Assembly: GCA_016841725.1 (NCBI GenBank)
Contig: JAENYP010000001.1
Span: 486,540-550,539, forward strand
Length of the DNA stretch: 64,000 nt
Direction: 5' to 3'
Origin: Thermincola carboxydiphila
Lineage (GTDB): Bacteria; Bacillota; Thermincolia; Thermincolales; UBA2595
The notes under the pieces are model-generated. The model was given only the letters and a program-made list of their open reading frames with translations, was not told the DNA's origin and did no database searches. Below are positions 33,692 through 61,992 of this stretch, piece after piece. How positions within the stretch are numbered: the first letter of the stretch is position 1; every line of letters starts with the position of its first letter. Both the position numbers and the translations under genes were made by a program.

Positions 33692-33895
33692 ATGGCACTA
33701 GAAACTAAAATTAAAGAGTTTCGGGCTAAAATAAATATGACTCAGGAAGATCTGGCCAAAGCAGTGGGAGTACGCAGAGAAACAGTAATCCACTTAGAAA
33801 AGGGAAAATACAATCCTTCATTGAAGCTTGCACACGATATAGCCCAAACTTTAAATACAACCATCGATGGATTGTTTACCTTTACTGATGATTAA
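33692..33895 (+). CDS. Small XRE-family (Cro/CI) DNA-binding regulator
   Basis: 67 residues made up almost wholly of one helix-turn-helix_3 domain: [49 protein letters not shown]. Proteins of this size and pattern (TQEELAxxVGVxRxTIxxxExGxYxPSL) are stand-alone repressors, often encoded beside a small membrane protein they control. No such partner is next to it here. ATG at 33692 with an AGGTGATC site. It stands alone between the dcw promoter and a hairpin repeat; its target is unknown. Confidence 0.85.
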
Positions 33896-33917
33896 CACCC
33901 CCATTTTGCGGTTATTT

Positions 33918-33950
33918 GGCAGATATTTTCCGGAACGACGAGTCTGATGT
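33918..33950. repeat. Large hairpin repeat, copy D1 (arm fragment)
   Basis: GGCAGATATTTTCCGGAACG and ACGAGTCTGATGT match the left arm of the adjacent full copy (starting 33988) except for one or two bases. No partner arm is present, so it is a fragment, possibly a duplication of one arm. Confidence 0.7.
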
Positions 33951-33980
33951 TGGCAGCTGCTCAAATTGACCATAAATATG

Positions 33981-34101
33981 AGGAGAGGCAGATATTTCCC
34001 GGAACGACGAGTCTGATGTCAGTCGACCCACAATCCGCGTAAGCGGGAGTGGATTGTCGACTGAATCGTTGCCGTCGTGTAGGAATATATCTGCCTCTCC
34101 T
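33981..34101. repeat. Large hairpin repeat, copy D2 (full)
   Basis: Outer inverted arms GGAGAGGCAGATAT...ACGACG and CGTCGT...ATATATCTGCCTCTCC enclose an inner perfect-to-near-perfect stem CAGTCGAC-CCACAATCC / TGGATTGTCGACTG with a GC-rich loop. The arms are asymmetric in the middle (GAGTCTGATGTC opposite GGCAACGATTCAG), and the same asymmetry is seen in copies A and C. It sits 33 bp beyond the cheW stop, so it may also end that transcript. Confidence 0.75.
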
Positions 34102-34133
34102 TGGCGTTATGATTAAAACTTAGCTGGTAAGTA

Positions 34134-34595
34134 TTATACAGCCTCAGCTATTTCCCGGCCAATAAGCTTTTCTAGGTCAAGGATTATAATCAATCCCGAT
34201 TCCATTTTTGCAACACCGGTAATATAATTTTCGTCTATGGAGGAAGTTAGAAGAGAGGATGCTTTTTCAATTACACTGCCAGAAATCATGACCACCTCGG
34301 TAACACCGTCTACTACAATACCCACAGTATTGTCCCCGGCTTCTACAACGATTATCCTCGTACTTCTGGTATTCTCTGCCTCAGGTAAATTGAATTTCTT
34401 TCTTAGTCTTAAAATGGGTATAATATGTCCCCTTAAGTTAATTATTCCTTCAATAACATCTGATCTTCCGGGCATATGTGTAGGCTCCAGATATACTATA
34501 ATCTCTTTAACTTTGTTTATATCTAAACCAAATATTTCTGCTCCGAGATTAAAAATCACATATTGTCTTTCATCAAATGTGTTAGCTTCATTCAC
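34134..34595 (-). CDS. cheW: CheW-like chemotaxis coupling protein
   Basis: 153 residues forming a single CheW domain: YVIFNLGAEIFGLDINKVKEII, GIINLRGHIIPILRLRKKF (the CheW hallmark at ~49-67), and VGIVVDGVTEVVMI. It couples chemoreceptors to CheA. ATG at 34595, 15 bp after the MCP gene in the same direction, so the pair is an operon. No cheA or other che gene lies in the window, so this is a satellite receptor-coupling module feeding a system elsewhere. Confidence 0.92.
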   Translation of the reverse strand: MNEANTFDERQYVIFNLGAEIFGLDINKVKEIIVYLEPTHMPGRSDVIEGIINLRGHIIPILRLRKKFNLPEAENTRSTRIIVVEAGDNTVGIVVDGVTEVVMISGSVIEKASSLLTSSIDENYITGVAKMESGLIIILDLEKLIGREIAEAV

Positions 34596-34610
34596 CGTCT
34601 CTCACCTCCT

Positions 34611-36851
34611 CTAAATTTTGAACCGAGCAACCATGTTCTGCAGTTCCTGAGCCATTCTTGCCAATTGTTCACTCGAAGAAGATATTTCTTCAATGGAAGC
34701 TGTCAATTCTTCGGTAGAGGCTGAAACTTCCTCGGCGCCCGAAGCGTTTTCCTCGGAAATAGAAGCAATATTTTGCATCGAGGAATTAACTTCTTCTGCG
34801 GATGCTGACATTTCTTCAGTTGCGGCTGAGTTTTCTTCAGTGATAGCCGCCACATTATTTACTGCTTTTGACACTTCTTCACTGCCAGTCAAAATTTCGT
34901 TAATAATCTCCATAATCTTATGTACCTGCTCACCGGCGGTATTAACGCCTTGAACAATTTCTTTCAAAGATTGTCCGGCATCCTGAGCCAGTTCCACACC
35001 TGATTCTACTTCCCTGGTGCCTACCTGCATTGAGTCAACAGCTACCTTTGTGCCTCTTTGGATATTGGTGATCAATTCAGCGATTTCCTTGGTCGCTTTA
35101 CCTGACCTCTCAGCCAGTTTACGCACCTCATCTGCCACCACGGCAAATCCTTTGCCGTGTTCACCAGCACGCGCTGCTTCAATTGCAGCATTTAAGGCAA
35201 GCAAATTGGTCTGCTCTGCTATATCATCAATGACTTGGATTATTTCACCTATTTTTTGGGATTGGACCCCCAAATCCTGAATTCTCTGAGCGGTTTCAAA
35301 TACGGCATCTTTAACTTTTAACATGCCATTAACGGTTTTCTCCACCGATTTTCCGCCGTTTTCTGCCACAACCCCGTTATCTTCAGCCGCCTTTTTAACG
35401 TTCTCCATACCTTGGGCCATGGCTTCAATTCTATTTACCATATCGTTTACCAAATTAGTGGTATCAACGACATTTTTACTCTGTTCCCCAGCCCCTGCAG
35501 CTATTTGCGTAATGGACAGTGCAACCTGATCCATTATCTGAACGATATCAGTGACACTTTTTGCCTGGTCAGTAGAGCCCTTAGCCACCAGTTCAATAGT
35601 CTGCGCTACCTGCTGGGTAGCTTTGGTTGCTTCTTGTGCATTTGATGACAGCTCGCCACCGGTTGCCGCTACAGTCTGTGAAGTTTTATTGACTTCAGCC
35701 ATTATCGATTGAATTTTTGATACGAACTGGTTAAGCCAATTAGCCATTTCACCCAACTCGTCTTTGGTATTGAGTAATAACCTTGCGGTTAGGTCACCTT
35801 CTCCTTCAGCCATGTCTTTTAGCTGGGCAATGGCCATTCCCAGCGGTTTTTGGATTGAGCGGGATATTCCCAGTCCCAGTATTACCGTAAATAATATTAC
35901 TGCAAAAAAGGCCACGCTGAGCCATATCTTTAAGCTATTAGCAGTTGCCAGGGCTTCAGACTCATCGATTTCTGCAATAATACCCCATGTCATTCCCGGT
36001 ATGTCTAAAGGTTGAAATGCACTGAAAACTGATATACCCCTGTAATCTTTGATGGCGTTAACGCCGGTTTCGCCCGAAAGGATTTTTGATACAGCCTGAG
36101 TATCTATTTCCTGTTCCAAGATAGTACTATTCTCAGAAAAGCGAGAATTAGAACGCATCAATTTATCATTTCCAATTAGATATGTTTCGCCGGTTTCGCC
36201 CAAACCCGTTCTTTCCTGCATTACAGAATCAACCTTTTCGATAGAAACCTGCAAAGCCAGAACGCCAATTATCTGGTTCCCTTTTTTTATAGGAGCAGCA
36301 AGAAAACTTGCCGGTTCATTATCTGACCCAGCATAACGTTTAAAGTCTGTTAAAATGCGTTCTCCTTTTATTGCTTTCTGAAAAGCCTCTGCAAGGATGC
36401 TGTCTTTGTAGGGGCCAGATATTAAATTGGTTCCCAGGTCTTTCTCTTTGCTCACAGTGAAGACGACATTGCCGGACTTATCTATTAGAAATAGGTCATA
36501 GTAACCATATTCCTGGATATAGTTTTCAAACGTCGTCTCATAAGCAGCTGATGCTGTTTGATAACTTAGGCCTGTTAAGCTTTCTGAAGAAAAAGCAAGT
36601 TGAAAAGCTTCCAGAGCGCTGACAGTTTCACTGAAGCCTGCCAGCACCCTTGTGTCTCCTAATCGTTCTGCAAAATAAACTTCGATTTGGCCGGCTTTAA
36701 TGCTCCTTACCGCTTCAAGCTTGGTATTGGCTTCCAGTTCAAGCTGTTTTTGAACCTTTGAGGTAATAACAAGCCCCAGTACAATTAACGGAATAATACT
36801 GCCTAGCGTAATTAATAGAAGCAACCTTTGTTTAATAGTAAGATTTTTCAA
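34611..36851 (-). CDS. Methyl-accepting chemotaxis protein with extracellular Cache domain
   Basis: 746 residues. TM1 ~10-31, periplasmic-side dCache-like sensor ~35-300 ([43 protein letters not shown]), TM2 ~308-328, HAMP ~330-382, then the signalling coiled coil with the hairpin tip [43 protein letters not shown]. The C-terminal Gln/Glu-rich helices offer methylation sites. It senses a small ligand, unidentified here. TTG start at 36851 with GGGAAGTGAT upstream. Its promoter lies in the ~180 bp between the gene and the left inverted site of the recombinase island. Confidence 0.93.
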
Positions 36852-37031
36852 TACCTATCACTTCCCTCGTATGTTTTTTGTAAATTCCAGTCAGGTAATT
36901 GTAAACTGATGTGCAAAAAAGGCCTGCCAGAACTTAATTAAATATATATAAACAGGACATGCAACCGTCCTGGACTTAGCTTTTGCGCAATCTTTTCGAT
37001 AAATTTTGCTTTTTTGAATAAAACTTTTTTC

Positions 37032-37063
37032 TAATGTAACAAAAGATGAATAATGTTACATTA
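37032..37063 (+). repeat. Left inverted site of the recombinase island
   Basis: Arms TAATGTAAC (37032-37040) and GTTACATTA (37055-37063) are a perfect 9-bp inverted repeat around a 14-bp spacer AAAAGATGAATAAT. The segment 37036-37063 recurs exactly, inverted, at 37921-37948. Confidence 0.85.
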
Positions 37064-37116
37064 GACAAAATTCTCAACCTTAAATACACCAAGGTTTTTG
37101 TCTCTTTATGGCACCA

Positions 37117-37145
37117 TTGTCTTTATTTGTATTGTTTTATAGAAT
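37117..37145 (+). promoter_or_regulatory. Likely sigma-A promoter of the recombinase gene
   Basis: TTGTCT (37117-37122), 17-bp spacer, TAGAAT (37140-37145). Predicted start ~37152. The arm-like sequence TTACATTA at 37161-37168 lies between the start point and the ribosome binding site and could allow autoregulation by the recombinase. Confidence 0.55.
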
Positions 37146-37184
37146 ATAAAGTGAAAAATATTACATTAAATGGAGGTAGTGATA

Positions 37185-37751
37185 GTGACAGTTGAACCAA
37201 TCCGAGACACAAAAAAAATTAAGGCAGTTATTAATTACCTTAAGAAACGTACCATGAGAGATTATTTGCTTTTTTTGGTTGGGGTTAATACAGGTTTGCG
37301 AATTAGTGATATCATCATCTTAAAATACAGTGATATTTTTGATGAAAAAGGTACTTTTAAGCAATACCTGGTGATCCGAGAGCGAAAAACACTTAAAGAG
37401 AAAAAAATTAAACTAAATGATTCCCTGAAAAAGGCCTTAAAATCATATATTAGTCTGCATCCGGAACTGCAAAAAAAAGAATATATATTTGCCAGTAAAA
37501 AAGGTGGATATATCACTCGGATACAAGCTTATAGAATATTAAAAGAGGCTGCCAATAAATTGCAAATTGAAAATTTCGGAACCCATTCAATGCGTAAAAC
37601 ATGGGGTTATCATACCTATAAAGCATCAAAATTTAACATTGGTCTGATTATGGATATATTTAACCACTCTTCCCCAAGAGTAACATTAAGGTATATAGGT
37701 ATCAGTCAGGATCAAAAAGACGAATTATTTTCCATTGTCCAATTTGGCTAA
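37185..37751 (+). CDS. Minimal tyrosine recombinase/integrase (catalytic domain only)
   Basis: About 188 residues. All six catalytic positions of the family can be placed: Arg in TGLRISD, Lys in the RERKTLKEKK beta-hairpin, HxxR in THSMRKTWG, His in FNHSSP, and Tyr in RYIGIS. There is no N-terminal SAM-like arm-binding domain, so its size is that of FimB/FimE-type invertases (~200) rather than of phage integrases (~350-400). GTG at 37185 is chosen for GGAGG ten bases upstream; an ATG at 37170 is the alternative but precedes that site. It lies between two inverted 32-bp sites, which are the obvious candidate substrates. Codon use is AT-rich, unlike the neighbours, indicating transfer. Confidence 0.85.
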   Translation: MTVEPIRDTKKIKAVINYLKKRTMRDYLLFLVGVNTGLRISDIIILKYSDIFDEKGTFKQYLVIRERKTLKEKKIKLNDSLKKALKSYISLHPELQKKEYIFASKKGGYITRIQAYRILKEAANKLQIENFGTHSMRKTWGYHTYKASKFNIGLIMDIFNHSSPRVTLRYIGISQDQKDELFSIVQFG

Positions 37752-37920
37752 ATGAATACCCAACAAATATATACCAGTATACTTACAAAGTTGTTATCTA
37801 AAACCAAACTATGGAAATTAAGGCATTGATGTCAAAAAAACAAACAAAATGTAGAAATATGTTATTAAATAGCAGGAATTAGTTGTTTTATATCGTATTA
37901 ATATTTATAGAAATTATTTT

Positions 37921-37952
37921 TAATGTAACATTATTCATCTTTTGTTACCTAA
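37921..37952 (-). repeat. Right inverted site of the recombinase island
   Basis: TAATGTAAC, then the 14-bp spacer ATTATTCATCTTTT (exact reverse complement of the left spacer), then GTTACCTAA, whose arm differs from the left site at two bases. Identity to the left site is 28 bp (37921-37948). Confidence 0.85.
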
Positions 37953-38001
37953 AAACAAACGCAAGCAGTAAATAACCGACAAATCAAGTTCCTGACCAAA
38001 T

Positions 38002-38040
38002 AAAAAAGAACCCATATTTACGTTGGGTTCATTTTTATTT
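38002..38040. terminator. Bidirectional terminator between the recombinase island and the DUF457 gene
   Basis: GAACCCA (38008-38014) and TGGGTTC (38024-38030) form the stem. T-rich runs follow on both strands (ATTTTTATTT on plus, TTTTTTATTT on minus). It would serve both the plus-strand recombinase and the minus-strand gene ending at 38103. Confidence 0.75.
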
Positions 38041-38102
38041 ATAGAATAACCAATTAAAAATTTTTTATGTGACAATCAAAATATTTAAAAAATGCAGTCC
38101 TT

Positions 38103-39086
38103 CTATGAAGCTTCCTCCTGAAGGAAATCTTCAATTTTTCTCCTGCGGCGGCGCACCGGTTTCTTCACCTGCAGCTTTTCACCGGTAACTGTGCCACATT
38201 CACTCAGGTAAACAGTGACACCGTGCACCCCGCCCAGGTTAAGCAGTTGGGCATCACACCATTCCACCCTGTACCCGCCATCAATCCTATTAAAGTTGTA
38301 AAAGGGAAACCGCGCTCTTTTCAGGAAAATATCCACCAGTTCCGAATCACACGACTGCTTGATACACCTGTGATATGAGGCGGAAACAAACTCCCGGGCA
38401 GCCAGAATCTCTTCTTTTCTGGTATCGACACTCACATAAAGGTACTGGCTCCTGGCCTTATAAATAACATCCCACTTAAAAGGGCTGATGGCAGAAGGCA
38501 GCACATAGACCTCGGCATCCTTGAACCGGGGACCCATTTCCCCTGCAGCCATTCTCCGGGCCCTGCGCTTTTGAAATACCCGGAGCAGCAGATAAGAAGC
38601 AATCAGTGCAAAGCCTAGCATAAAAAACATCTTTTCATGGCCCGGAAAATGGTATGCCAGGTATACACTGCCAACCATCGAGGTTATCATCACCGGGTCA
38701 AAGAACCAAATCAGGTCAAAACCATACTTCTTGGATGAAAACGGGTAAAAAAGCGGCAGCCCCCACGGTGTAAACGAGTCCATTACCAGGTGCCCCGCCA
38801 GTCCCGCGCCAACCATGATGAAAATGGCAGCAAAACTGTCCAGCGGAGTAAAAAAGTAAATTCCTCCTGAAATCAGCGCCCATAGTACGGCTGCGCCAAG
38901 CAGGGAATGAGTTATTTCACGGTGATATTTATAAAATGTCTTTGGTCCCTTCAGGCCTGCCACAATATCCAGGTCTGGGGCAATATTGGCAATCATCATG
39001 GTCACTGTACCGGCAAGACCGAATTTTTGGTTAAGCCCGAGCCCGGCCATCATTGTACCCATCAAGCCATGAGAAATCAAATCCAC
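38103..39086 (-). CDS. YdjM/DUF457-family membrane-bound metal-dependent hydrolase
   Basis: 327 residues. The N-terminal half is polytopic with the family metal motifs: SHGLMG at the start, PDLDIVAG at ~38 and REITHSLLGA at ~56, then HLVMDSFTPWGLPLFYPF at ~100. This is the LexA-regulated, membrane-bound metal-dependent hydrolase family (YdjM), whose substrate is not known. The ~150-residue soluble C-terminal part is extra and ends in a very basic KKPVRRRRRK segment. GTG start with AAGGATG upstream. Monocistronic. Confidence 0.82.
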   Translation of the reverse strand: MDLISHGLMGTMMAGLGLNQKFGLAGTVTMMIANIAPDLDIVAGLKGPKTFYKYHREITHSLLGAAVLWALISGGIYFFTPLDSFAAIFIMVGAGLAGHLVMDSFTPWGLPLFYPFSSKKYGFDLIWFFDPVMITSMVGSVYLAYHFPGHEKMFFMLGFALIASYLLLRVFQKRRARRMAAGEMGPRFKDAEVYVLPSAISPFKWDVIYKARSQYLYVSVDTRKEEILAAREFVSASYHRCIKQSCDSELVDIFLKRARFPFYNFNRIDGGYRVEWCDAQLLNLGGVHGVTVYLSECGTVTGEKLQVKKPVRRRRRKIEDFLQEEAS

Positions 39087-60362: not shown

Positions 60363-60445
60363 ATTCTCCGGTAACCCGGCTGTCAGGGATATTATCCCAG
60401 ACCCGTGGTTTTGCGCCCCCACCTCTCAATGGGTTTGCCCTTATC
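60363..60445 (-). ncRNA. Cyclic-di-GMP-I (GEMM-I) riboswitch, copy 1
   Basis: Minus strand: AAGGGCAAACCCATTGAGAG, GGTGGGGGCGCAAAACC, ACGGGTCTGGG, and CAGCCGGGTTACCGG in the order and spacing of the GEMM-I aptamer. The guanine equivalent to G20 of the Vibrio Vc2 aptamer is kept, favouring c-di-GMP over cGAMP. Two bases in the normally conserved GACGCAAAGCC block differ (GGCGCAAAACC). It has its own promoter (60501-60529) and is followed by a terminator and then the glucan operon starting at 60007. Confidence 0.88.
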
Positions 60446-60500
60446 TGAATAATGATATTTACTTAGTTGAAGTAAGTAACCTGAATCTTTTTATTAACTA

Positions 60501-60529
60501 ATTATATACCGACTTAACAAATATTTCAA
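60501..60529 (-). promoter_or_regulatory. Sigma-A promoter of riboswitch copy 1 / glucan operon
   Basis: Minus strand TTGAAA (60524-60529), 17-bp spacer, TATAAT (60501-60506). It would give a transcript starting ~50 bp before aptamer copy 1. Confidence 0.75.
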
Positions 60530-60640
60530 GTATAATTGTTTTAATTTTCTATGTGCCTAAATAATTACGGCCTGTGAAGTATTCATCACAGTCCATAATA
60601 TACTTCACCGGTTTCCTACCGCAACCCGTGCCTGAAAGCG

Positions 60641-60667
60641 AAAAAAAGACCGCATCGTGTGCGGTCC
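60641..60667 (-). terminator. Terminator after the transglutaminase gene
   Basis: GACCGC-(7 nt)-GCGGTC stem followed by seven T on the minus strand, 29 bp beyond the stop at 60696. Confidence 0.85.
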
Positions 60668-60695
60668 CTTAGAAAAAAGGAGGTTAGAGGTATGT

Positions 60696-61553
60696 TTAAT
60701 AAACTTCCTGGGTTTTTTTATGGGTGGTTCCGAAAACCCCTGCATCCTGGTCAAATACCTTCCAGACGGTATCCATGGTAACCCATCTGTCACCAATCCG
60801 GACCTCGTTCCAGGCGTGTCCGTACCAGGTTCCCCCGGTCCCGGCTTCTCCGATAACGGTCCGGGCTTCAATCCCTTCAGCCCGGCACATTGCGGTAACC
60901 AGGTTTGCGTAGTCCCGGCACAGCCCCTTTTGGGTCTGCAGGGCCTTTACTGCACCGTCATTATCATAAAATTCACCGCGGCGGAACTTGTCCATGTCAT
61001 AAACCATATTTTTGCTGACCCACCCGAAAATGGCCTTGGTCCTGCTATAGTCATCCCCAGCCTGTCCGACTATCTGCCGCGCTTTTTTAGTTATAACCGG
61101 GTTACTGCTTTCAATCCCCCATGAAGGGAGCAGATACCTCATGTCACCGTTATCAGTGTTCTTAATCTGCACTCTGGCCAGAGAATCATAAGCAATTACG
61201 CCTGGGTTACTTGGTTTTACCAGATTGATATCCACCCGGTAGGTACCTTCGCCAAACCTCAGGTACACAGCCCCTGCAACCGTATTGCCAACTGCCGGAT
61301 AGTAGTAATATGCCTGATCCTCTCCGAGAACAGTCCTGACAATTATTCCTGTATATTTTTCGGTAACAGTACCCTGGAAACTGAACCAGGTATCAAAGCT
61401 GTCACCGGCCAGTGTCACCGAATTGCCTTCGGTGTAAGGTGTAAACCATCTAATATTTGCCTCTCCGGCAAATGCAGCCGGAGCAAATGTTGTGATAAGA
61501 ATAATAGCAGTTAAGATTATCAGAATCCTTCTAAGCAGCCTGAAATCTTTCAC
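60696..61553 (-). CDS. Secreted transglutaminase-like superfamily protein
   Basis: About 285 residues. Signal peptide (~1-30, ends AFAGEA), a ~100-residue beta-rich N-terminal part, then a transglutaminase/papain-like core: KGLCRDYANLVTAMCRAEGIEARTVIG (catalytic Cys), WYGHAWNEVRIGDRW (His) and VTMDTVW (Asp). Such exported proteins act as proteases, amidases or crosslinkers of surface polymers. GTG at 61553 is used because GGAGG lies 8 bases upstream; the TTG at 61559 abuts it. That GGAGG directly follows the 3' end of c-di-GMP riboswitch copy 2, so translation is very likely c-di-GMP controlled. Confidence 0.88.
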   Translation of the reverse strand: MKDFRLLRRILIILTAIILITTFAPAAFAGEANIRWFTPYTEGNSVTLAGDSFDTWFSFQGTVTEKYTGIIVRTVLGEDQAYYYYPAVGNTVAGAVYLRFGEGTYRVDINLVKPSNPGVIAYDSLARVQIKNTDNGDMRYLLPSWGIESSNPVITKKARQIVGQAGDDYSRTKAIFGWVSKNMVYDMDKFRRGEFYDNDGAVKALQTQKGLCRDYANLVTAMCRAEGIEARTVIGEAGTGGTWYGHAWNEVRIGDRWVTMDTVWKVFDQDAGVFGTTHKKTQEVY

Positions 61554-61562
61554 GGCCAAAAC

Positions 61563-61645
61563 CTCCTTCGGTAACCCGGCTATCTGGAGTATCCAGACCC
61601 GTGGCTTTGCGTCCCCACCTCTCGATGGGTTTGCCTTTATCGGGA
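61563..61645 (-). ncRNA. Cyclic-di-GMP-I (GEMM-I) riboswitch, copy 2, abutting the transglutaminase start
   Basis: Minus strand: AAAGGCAAACCCATCGAGAG, GGTGGGGACGCAAAGCC, ACGGGTCTGG, and TAGCCGGGTTACCG. All core motifs are canonical and G20-equivalent is G. No terminator follows. The last aptamer bases (TTACCGAAGGAGG) run into the ribosome binding site of the gene starting at 61553, which suggests translational control. Confidence 0.92.
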
Positions 61646-61787
61646 GTGACGGTATTTCCTTATCCGGAAAAACTCTTCATTTCCCAATATAGTTTTGGTT
61701 AATATTCACTTTTATCAACAGATTTCTTGGCGTCAGGTGGAGTTTGGACTCCATCTGCTGCTTAGAAATCGTTATCCAGGAGCTCAG

Positions 61788-61830
61788 CGCCGCTTATCTC
61801 CCACTTGACGAGGTGGGAGTCTTAGCGGCG
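61788..61830. other. Compound hairpin between the two upstream riboswitches
   Basis: CGCCGCT/AGCGGCG outer and CTCCCAC/GTGGGAG inner stems in one 43-bp structure. Such stem pairs are common at ends of IS200/IS605-type elements, but no transposase is nearby. There is no T-run for termination. Confidence 0.45.
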
Positions 61831-61845
61831 GTTAGCTATCGGATA

Positions 61846-61882
61846 AATAATTAAGACCTGTCTCCGGGTTCCGGAAACAGGC
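61846..61882 (-). terminator. Terminator following c-di-GMP riboswitch copy 3
   Basis: GCCTGTTTCCGG / CCGGAGACAGG stem followed by a TTAATTATTT tail on the minus strand. The sequence is clearly related to the terminator after copy 1. Its CCGGAACCCGG segment is complementary to CCGGGTTACCGG at the 3' end of the aptamer, allowing an antiterminator. Confidence 0.7.
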
Positions 61883-61909
61883 CATGAAATCAAACACTGC
61901 CTAAATATT

Positions 61910-61992
61910 ACTCCCCGGTAACCCGGCTATCTGGACTTATCCAGACCCGTGGCTTTGCGTCCCCACCTCTCGATGGGTTTGCCATTATCAGA
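61910..61992 (-). ncRNA. Cyclic-di-GMP-I (GEMM-I) riboswitch, copy 3 (first of a tandem)
   Basis: Minus strand: ATGGCAAACCCATCGAGAG, GGTGGGGACGCAAAGCC, ACGGGTCTGG, and TAGCCGGGTTACCGG, canonical and nearly identical to copy 2. It lies 20 bp after its predicted transcription start and is followed by a terminator, ~265 bp before copy 2. Confidence 0.92.

Follow-up and report, generated by a model that had tools for sequence, protein, structure and literature searches.

A candidate self-inverting promoter switch carrying its own tyrosine recombinase beside a chemotaxis operon of Thermincola carboxydiphila

The window analysed here is the whole 64,000-nucleotide stretch of Thermincola carboxydiphila DNA, and within it a methyl-accepting chemotaxis protein (MCP) gene and a CheW-like gene are read away from a small element in which a tyrosine recombinase gene lies between two inverted sites. 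The features of the locus are as follows.

34134–34595, minus strand: gene for a CheW-like protein downstream of the MCP gene (assigned by blastp clustering with relatives that match Pfam CheW)
34611–36851, minus strand: MCP gene, the predicted target of the switch (MCPsignal, E 6e-52; HAMP)
36953–36972, minus strand: terminator-like hairpin with a U-rich tail in the MCP leader (one found against 0.7 expected in shuffles)
36957–37020, minus strand: weak match in the MCP leader to the c-di-GMP-I riboswitch, possibly a degenerate copy, next to the left site on its outer side (14.4 bits)
37032–37063, plus strand: left recombination site, direct sequence TAATGTAACA AAAGATGAATAA TGTTACATTA, that is, a 10-bp arm, a 12-bp asymmetric spacer (AAAGATGAATAA) and a 10-bp arm
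37160–37168, plus strand: third half-site-like sequence, ATTACATTA, directly 5' of the recombinase Shine–Dalgarno sequence (weak statistics)
37185–37751, plus strand: gene for a tyrosine recombinase of 188 amino acids, catalytic domain only (PF00589, E 7e-26)
37874–37899, plus strand: sigma-H-like sequence AGGAATT-N14-GTAT, a candidate outward promoter located at the element's right end and predicted to face the MCP gene after inversion
37921–37952, minus strand: right recombination site, inverted, reverse complement TTAGGTAACA AAAGATGAATAA TGTTACATTA, with a spacer identical to that of the left site
37998–38040, no strand assigned: inverted repeat with a T-run (17-bp arms, 94% complementary), adjoining the right site on the outside

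The recombinase reading frame is open from an ATG at 37170, but a GGAGG Shine–Dalgarno sequence at 37172–37176 favours the GTG at 37185, which is the likely start and gives the 188-residue protein. Domain assignment by sequence profiles returned PF00589 as the only Pfam match, over residues 15–177, which bears out an earlier note on this DNA in describing an enzyme that has no N-terminal core-binding domain. That note had also counted about 188 residues and six catalytic residues, and both hold: R39, K68, H134xxR137, H161 and Y170, which we take to be the catalytic residues of the tyrosine recombinase family, are invariant over the recombinases of 35 relatives, and the R-K-HxxR-H-Y signature of this class (PF00589) is complete in the window protein. 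The note's likeness to FimB and FimE stands for size, these being tyrosine recombinases of about 190 amino acids that likewise consist of the catalytic domain only and invert promoters, but not for membership, as the protein scored 46.7 and 40.1 bits against NCBIfam NF007371 and NF007370, far under the cut-offs of 222 and 221. The fimB and fimE genes moreover sit outside their switch of about 300 bp, whereas here the gene is inside. Membership of the Hin-type serine recombinases was also rejected, PF00589 being a tyrosine recombinase family.

The two sites are in inverted orientation and agree at 30 of 32 positions, with 28 consecutive identical bases that include the asymmetric spacer; the two differences fall in the outer arm of the right site. 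When all inverted 32-mer pairs within 1.5 kb were scanned across the 64-kb window this pair ranked top, the next unrelated pair reaching 27/32, and at fewer than three mismatches the site pattern occurs nowhere else in the whole 3.9-Mb genome. The direct sequence and the scan thus agree with the earlier description of inverted 32-bp sites at both ends sharing 28 bp, spacer included; the division of each site into 9, 14 and 9 bp is redrawn here as 10, 12 and 10. The proposed AT-rich island of about 920 bp is likewise seen in base composition, with a GC content of 29% in the bin 37001–38000 against 40–46% in the adjacent bins. The whole candidate invertible segment is about 0.9 kb long and encloses the recombinase gene.

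When one genome per species was scanned, 75 related loci emerged, some 40 with 57–85% identity, and whole-genome searches added more. Forty-seven non-redundant elements, the window's included, share the same design of a recombinase gene between paired inverted 32-bp sites, mostly spaced 0.8–0.9 kb apart, and this self-contained arrangement recurs in dozens of Clostridia-type bacteria, where it adjoins genes for motility and c-di-GMP signalling. Paired sites were absent from the more distant homologues examined (Paenibacillus and others). Two of the Paenibacillus homologues that have no paired sites (L047 and L051) lie near an epsC RNA element. Decayed or broken copies also occur among the relatives (L133 and L145); in L145 the left end of the element has been replaced by unrelated sequence, with the right site and promoter retained.

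Inversion by a tyrosine recombinase requires identical spacers in inverted sites. Within one element the left and right 12-bp spacers match on average at 11.5 of 12 positions (exactly in 30 of the 47 and at 11 or more positions in 43), compared with 6.6 of 12 between different elements, and none of 10,000 permutations reached the observed within-element total. The spacers match in the inverted register only, with no exact match in the direct register, and beyond the 32 bp the left–right identity of the elements is near background. Spacers that are equal inside an element and different between elements form the pattern required of inversion sites, and a matching crossover spacer in inverted sites, as expected of an invertible promoter element, is present in the window. 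All spacers differ among the copies in one MAG that has several, and between the two copies in genome G126; such differences would stop copies in one genome from recombining with each other.

We then considered the genes beside the element, with left denoting the 5' side of the recombinase gene. In 41 of 46 loci the closest left open reading frame points away from the element, and the left gene encodes a chemotaxis, c-di-GMP or FapA protein in 42 of 46, namely HD-domain (11), MCP (7), EAL and/or GGDEF (6), FapA (5), response regulator (5), CheA (5) and CheW (3) proteins, although some loci share descent and the counts are therefore not independent events. These are Pfam counts in which CheA/CheW overlaps were settled by hand and, at two loci (L009 and L034), a CheA gene behind a small spurious-looking reading frame was taken as the left gene. 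The position beside the element is thus shared by seven protein families that are unrelated to one another but belong to one signalling network. Right neighbours in the same element set showed no common theme and no enrichment for chemotaxis or c-di-GMP genes. At L042 and L123 an HD gene or MCP gene with the same direction as the recombinase gene lies immediately past the right site, as if flipped. The recombinase leader in these two loci is very short (23–35 nt) and the recombinase promoter may sit outside the element, in which case flipping would alter the enzyme's own expression. In several loci the target start codon is about 35–60 nt outside the site, leaving scant space for another promoter.

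Promoter-like sequences are enriched at the end far from the target. The pattern AGGAwTT-N14-G(A/T)AT, which we take to resemble sigma-H promoters, was found at 13 of 47 right ends and at none of 47 left ends, with 0.01 expected in shuffles, the pattern having been picked post hoc from the same data as the counts. The sigma-A pattern TTGACA-N17-TAtAAT was found with at most one mismatch at 10 of 47 right ends and 0 of 47 left ends (0.3 in shuffled sequence), and with at most two mismatches at 24 right and 5 left ends (3.9 shuffled). It appears, then, that the far end of these elements usually bears an outward promoter. The window candidate has GTAT and not GAAT, and is a weaker match to the pattern. 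The repeat at 37998–38040 was not flagged by a simple terminator scan; in the present orientation it could halt transcription that starts at the right-end promoter.

In ten relatives (L015, L019, L023, L024, L036, L046, L126, L130, L144 and L146) a strongly matching c-di-GMP-I riboswitch lies just outside the left site, and in the closest relative, G003, the leader reads by eye like the same aptamer and is followed by an HD-domain gene. The window match (14.4 bits against a gathering score of 35, with E 0.65–1.3 over all families) is at most a degenerate trace and was rejected as a riboswitch in the MCP leader. Elsewhere in the window, three c-di-GMP-I-GGC aptamers lie inside 1.6 kb on the minus strand (60366–61992).

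Evidence for inversion at the level of assembly comes from one relative, G345, in which contigs C18 and C25 both terminate in the same 856-nt element sequence. It can be seen that the left end of this element follows an HD gene on C18 and the opposite flank on C25, the flanks being defined by the intact arrangement in relative L129; both orientations have therefore been assembled. The element of G385 also adjoins an HD-domain gene, and in [Clostridium] ultunense (L007) there are assembly gaps at both ends of the element. Opposite orientations were not seen in the close pairs L010/L011 and L027/L028. A contig break at the left site in G003 was considered as an inverted junction and rejected, since the contigs overlap by exactly 99 nt in the same orientation; the break is possibly only a graph branch. 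Nearly all assembled relatives are in the presumed OFF orientation, so flipping would appear to be rare, biased or lost in many of them. According to PMC5903667, read pairs from Clostridia carry inversion signatures, mostly by signalling and chemotaxis genes, with MCP, HD phosphodiesterase and chemotaxis genes among the neighbours, and one in Desulfitobacterium dehalogenans next to an HD phosphodiesterase.

Taken together, the anatomy of the locus, its conservation across the family, the class of target, the promoter enrichment and the two orientations assembled in G345 lead us to conclude that this is very probably an ON/OFF promoter switch that resembles Hin but relies on a tyrosine recombinase, in the form of a self-contained invertible cassette. 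The recombinase would bind both 32-bp inverted sites and exchange strands inside the identical 12-bp spacer, and the exchange would flip the 0.9-kb segment with the recombinase's own gene inside. In the present orientation (OFF) the right-end promoter would point away from the target, and its transcripts would enter the terminator-like repeat and the next gene's 3' end; once inverted (ON), it would read through what had been the left junction and on into the MCP–CheW operon leader. The window was presumably assembled in the OFF state for this operon, and we infer from the sequence that its copy can invert, with an ON/OFF effect and a consequence for chemotaxis. In the relatives the same cassette would serve CheA, CheW, CheY, c-di-GMP enzymes (HD, EAL and GGDEF) and FapA, its promoter often reaching the target gene through a c-di-GMP riboswitch leader. 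The earlier note had proposed that the unit flips its own gene or moves as a unit; the first half is strengthened by the spacer rule of the family, by both orientations in a relative and by inversions beside such genes in the published passages cited above, whereas the second found little direct support. That reading lacked the outward promoter predicted at the end away from the target, and with it the adjacent chemotaxis or c-di-GMP operon that this promoter would drive after flipping.

The likeness to the H segment of Salmonella extends to a recombinase gene within the segment and, as predicted for the element here, to an outward end promoter and an adjacent operon, which in the case of Hin is driven in one orientation. 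Hin differs in being a serine recombinase that acts at hix sites in flagellar phase variation, whereas the window enzyme is a tyrosine recombinase with chemotaxis and c-di-GMP genes as targets. That the hin gene sits within its invertible segment is noted in PMC5903667, as is a Providencia stuartii invertible segment of 844 bp that encloses a recombinase open reading frame beside fimbriae, although this one has a fimbrial target, 14-bp imperfect repeats and a gammaproteobacterial host. Recombinase-enclosing invertible segments are therefore already known, and the earlier statement that no such one-gene arrangement was familiar was too strong. In Clostridioides difficile the tyrosine recombinase RecV inverts c-di-GMP and motility switches (cwpV, flgB, pdcB/pdcC and cmrRST in the passages of PMC9286219 and PMC5903667); the class of enzyme and of target is shared, but RecV serves several distant loci, whereas here every element comes with an enzyme and a spacer of its own. 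The clostridial inversions of PMC5903667 have the same gene neighbourhood as our family, and its main-text passages describe no clostridial recombinase-enclosing family, sites, promoters or target rule. The open-access papers searched report inversions at such genes, and no description of the family itself was found among them.

More tentatively, and with rather less expectation of being right, we suggest that these are portable, autonomous 0.9-kb tyrosine recombinase switches that are widespread, insulated by private spacers and recruited over evolution to various genes of chemotaxis and c-di-GMP signalling, which flipping and c-di-GMP riboswitches would together place under two-layer control. 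The resulting sequence rule (paired private-spacer sites, a recombinase inside, an outward promoter and an adjacent chemotaxis or c-di-GMP gene) would predict phase-variable motility signalling in many uncultured and environmental Bacillota. The family would also give candidate recombinases for the inversions reported in Clostridia, and compact switches insulated from each other that could be used in synthetic biology.

A special case, compatible with the family-level explanation, is that the family inverts and the window copy no longer does so, for example through its imperfect right arm. The two mismatches in that arm and the decayed relatives would fit such a locked state, but the spacer is still identical at 12 of 12 positions, the catalytic residues and reading frame are intact and similar arm mismatches occur in many relatives, and we regard it as unlikely, if a real prospect.

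It is less probable still that the unit is a minimal mobile element moved by its recombinase, with the inverted sites as its ends and the signalling neighbourhood as an insertion preference. The G003 recombinase is 85–86% identical to that of the window despite a different target (an HD-domain gene instead of an MCP gene), one MAG has several diverged copies, the element is AT-rich and the whole block is missing from G002, all of which mobility would explain. However, inverted sites with identical spacers yield inversion, not excision, and a fixed orientation and class of target are unexpected under random insertion. Each copy is either the only one or diverged from the others; the window's genome holds one copy with no close further copies, and neither an element-only empty site nor recent identical copies elsewhere were found. 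In G002, a close relative, the gap corresponds to window positions 34118–38103, with about 21 bases in place of the cheW–mcp–recombinase block, so the empty-site comparison that the earlier note had suggested does not define the ends of the element; the switch may have come or gone together with its target. At the edge of the absent block (about 33880–34110) lies a long imperfect hairpin, for which there was no Rfam match at the gathering threshold, with two copies of GGAACGACGAGTCTGATGT nearby; this sequence occurs at eight places in the genome with at most two mismatches.

That the recombinase only regulates its own transcription or acts on other chromosomal sites, the local sites being operators, is very improbable. 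In a number of relatives half-site-like sequences do flank the promoter of the recombinase gene, but operators have no need of asymmetric spacers that are identical at the two ends and lie in inverted register, and the genome has no other close site match. The third half-site-like sequence of the window makes autoregulation possible; in recombinase leaders such a sequence has on average 1.5 mismatches against 1.9 in shuffled sequence, so that the positions are suggestive and the statistics weak. In some recombinase leaders, L046, L147 and L036 among them, the putative -10 lies between two half-site-like sequences, an arrangement that suggests autoregulation.
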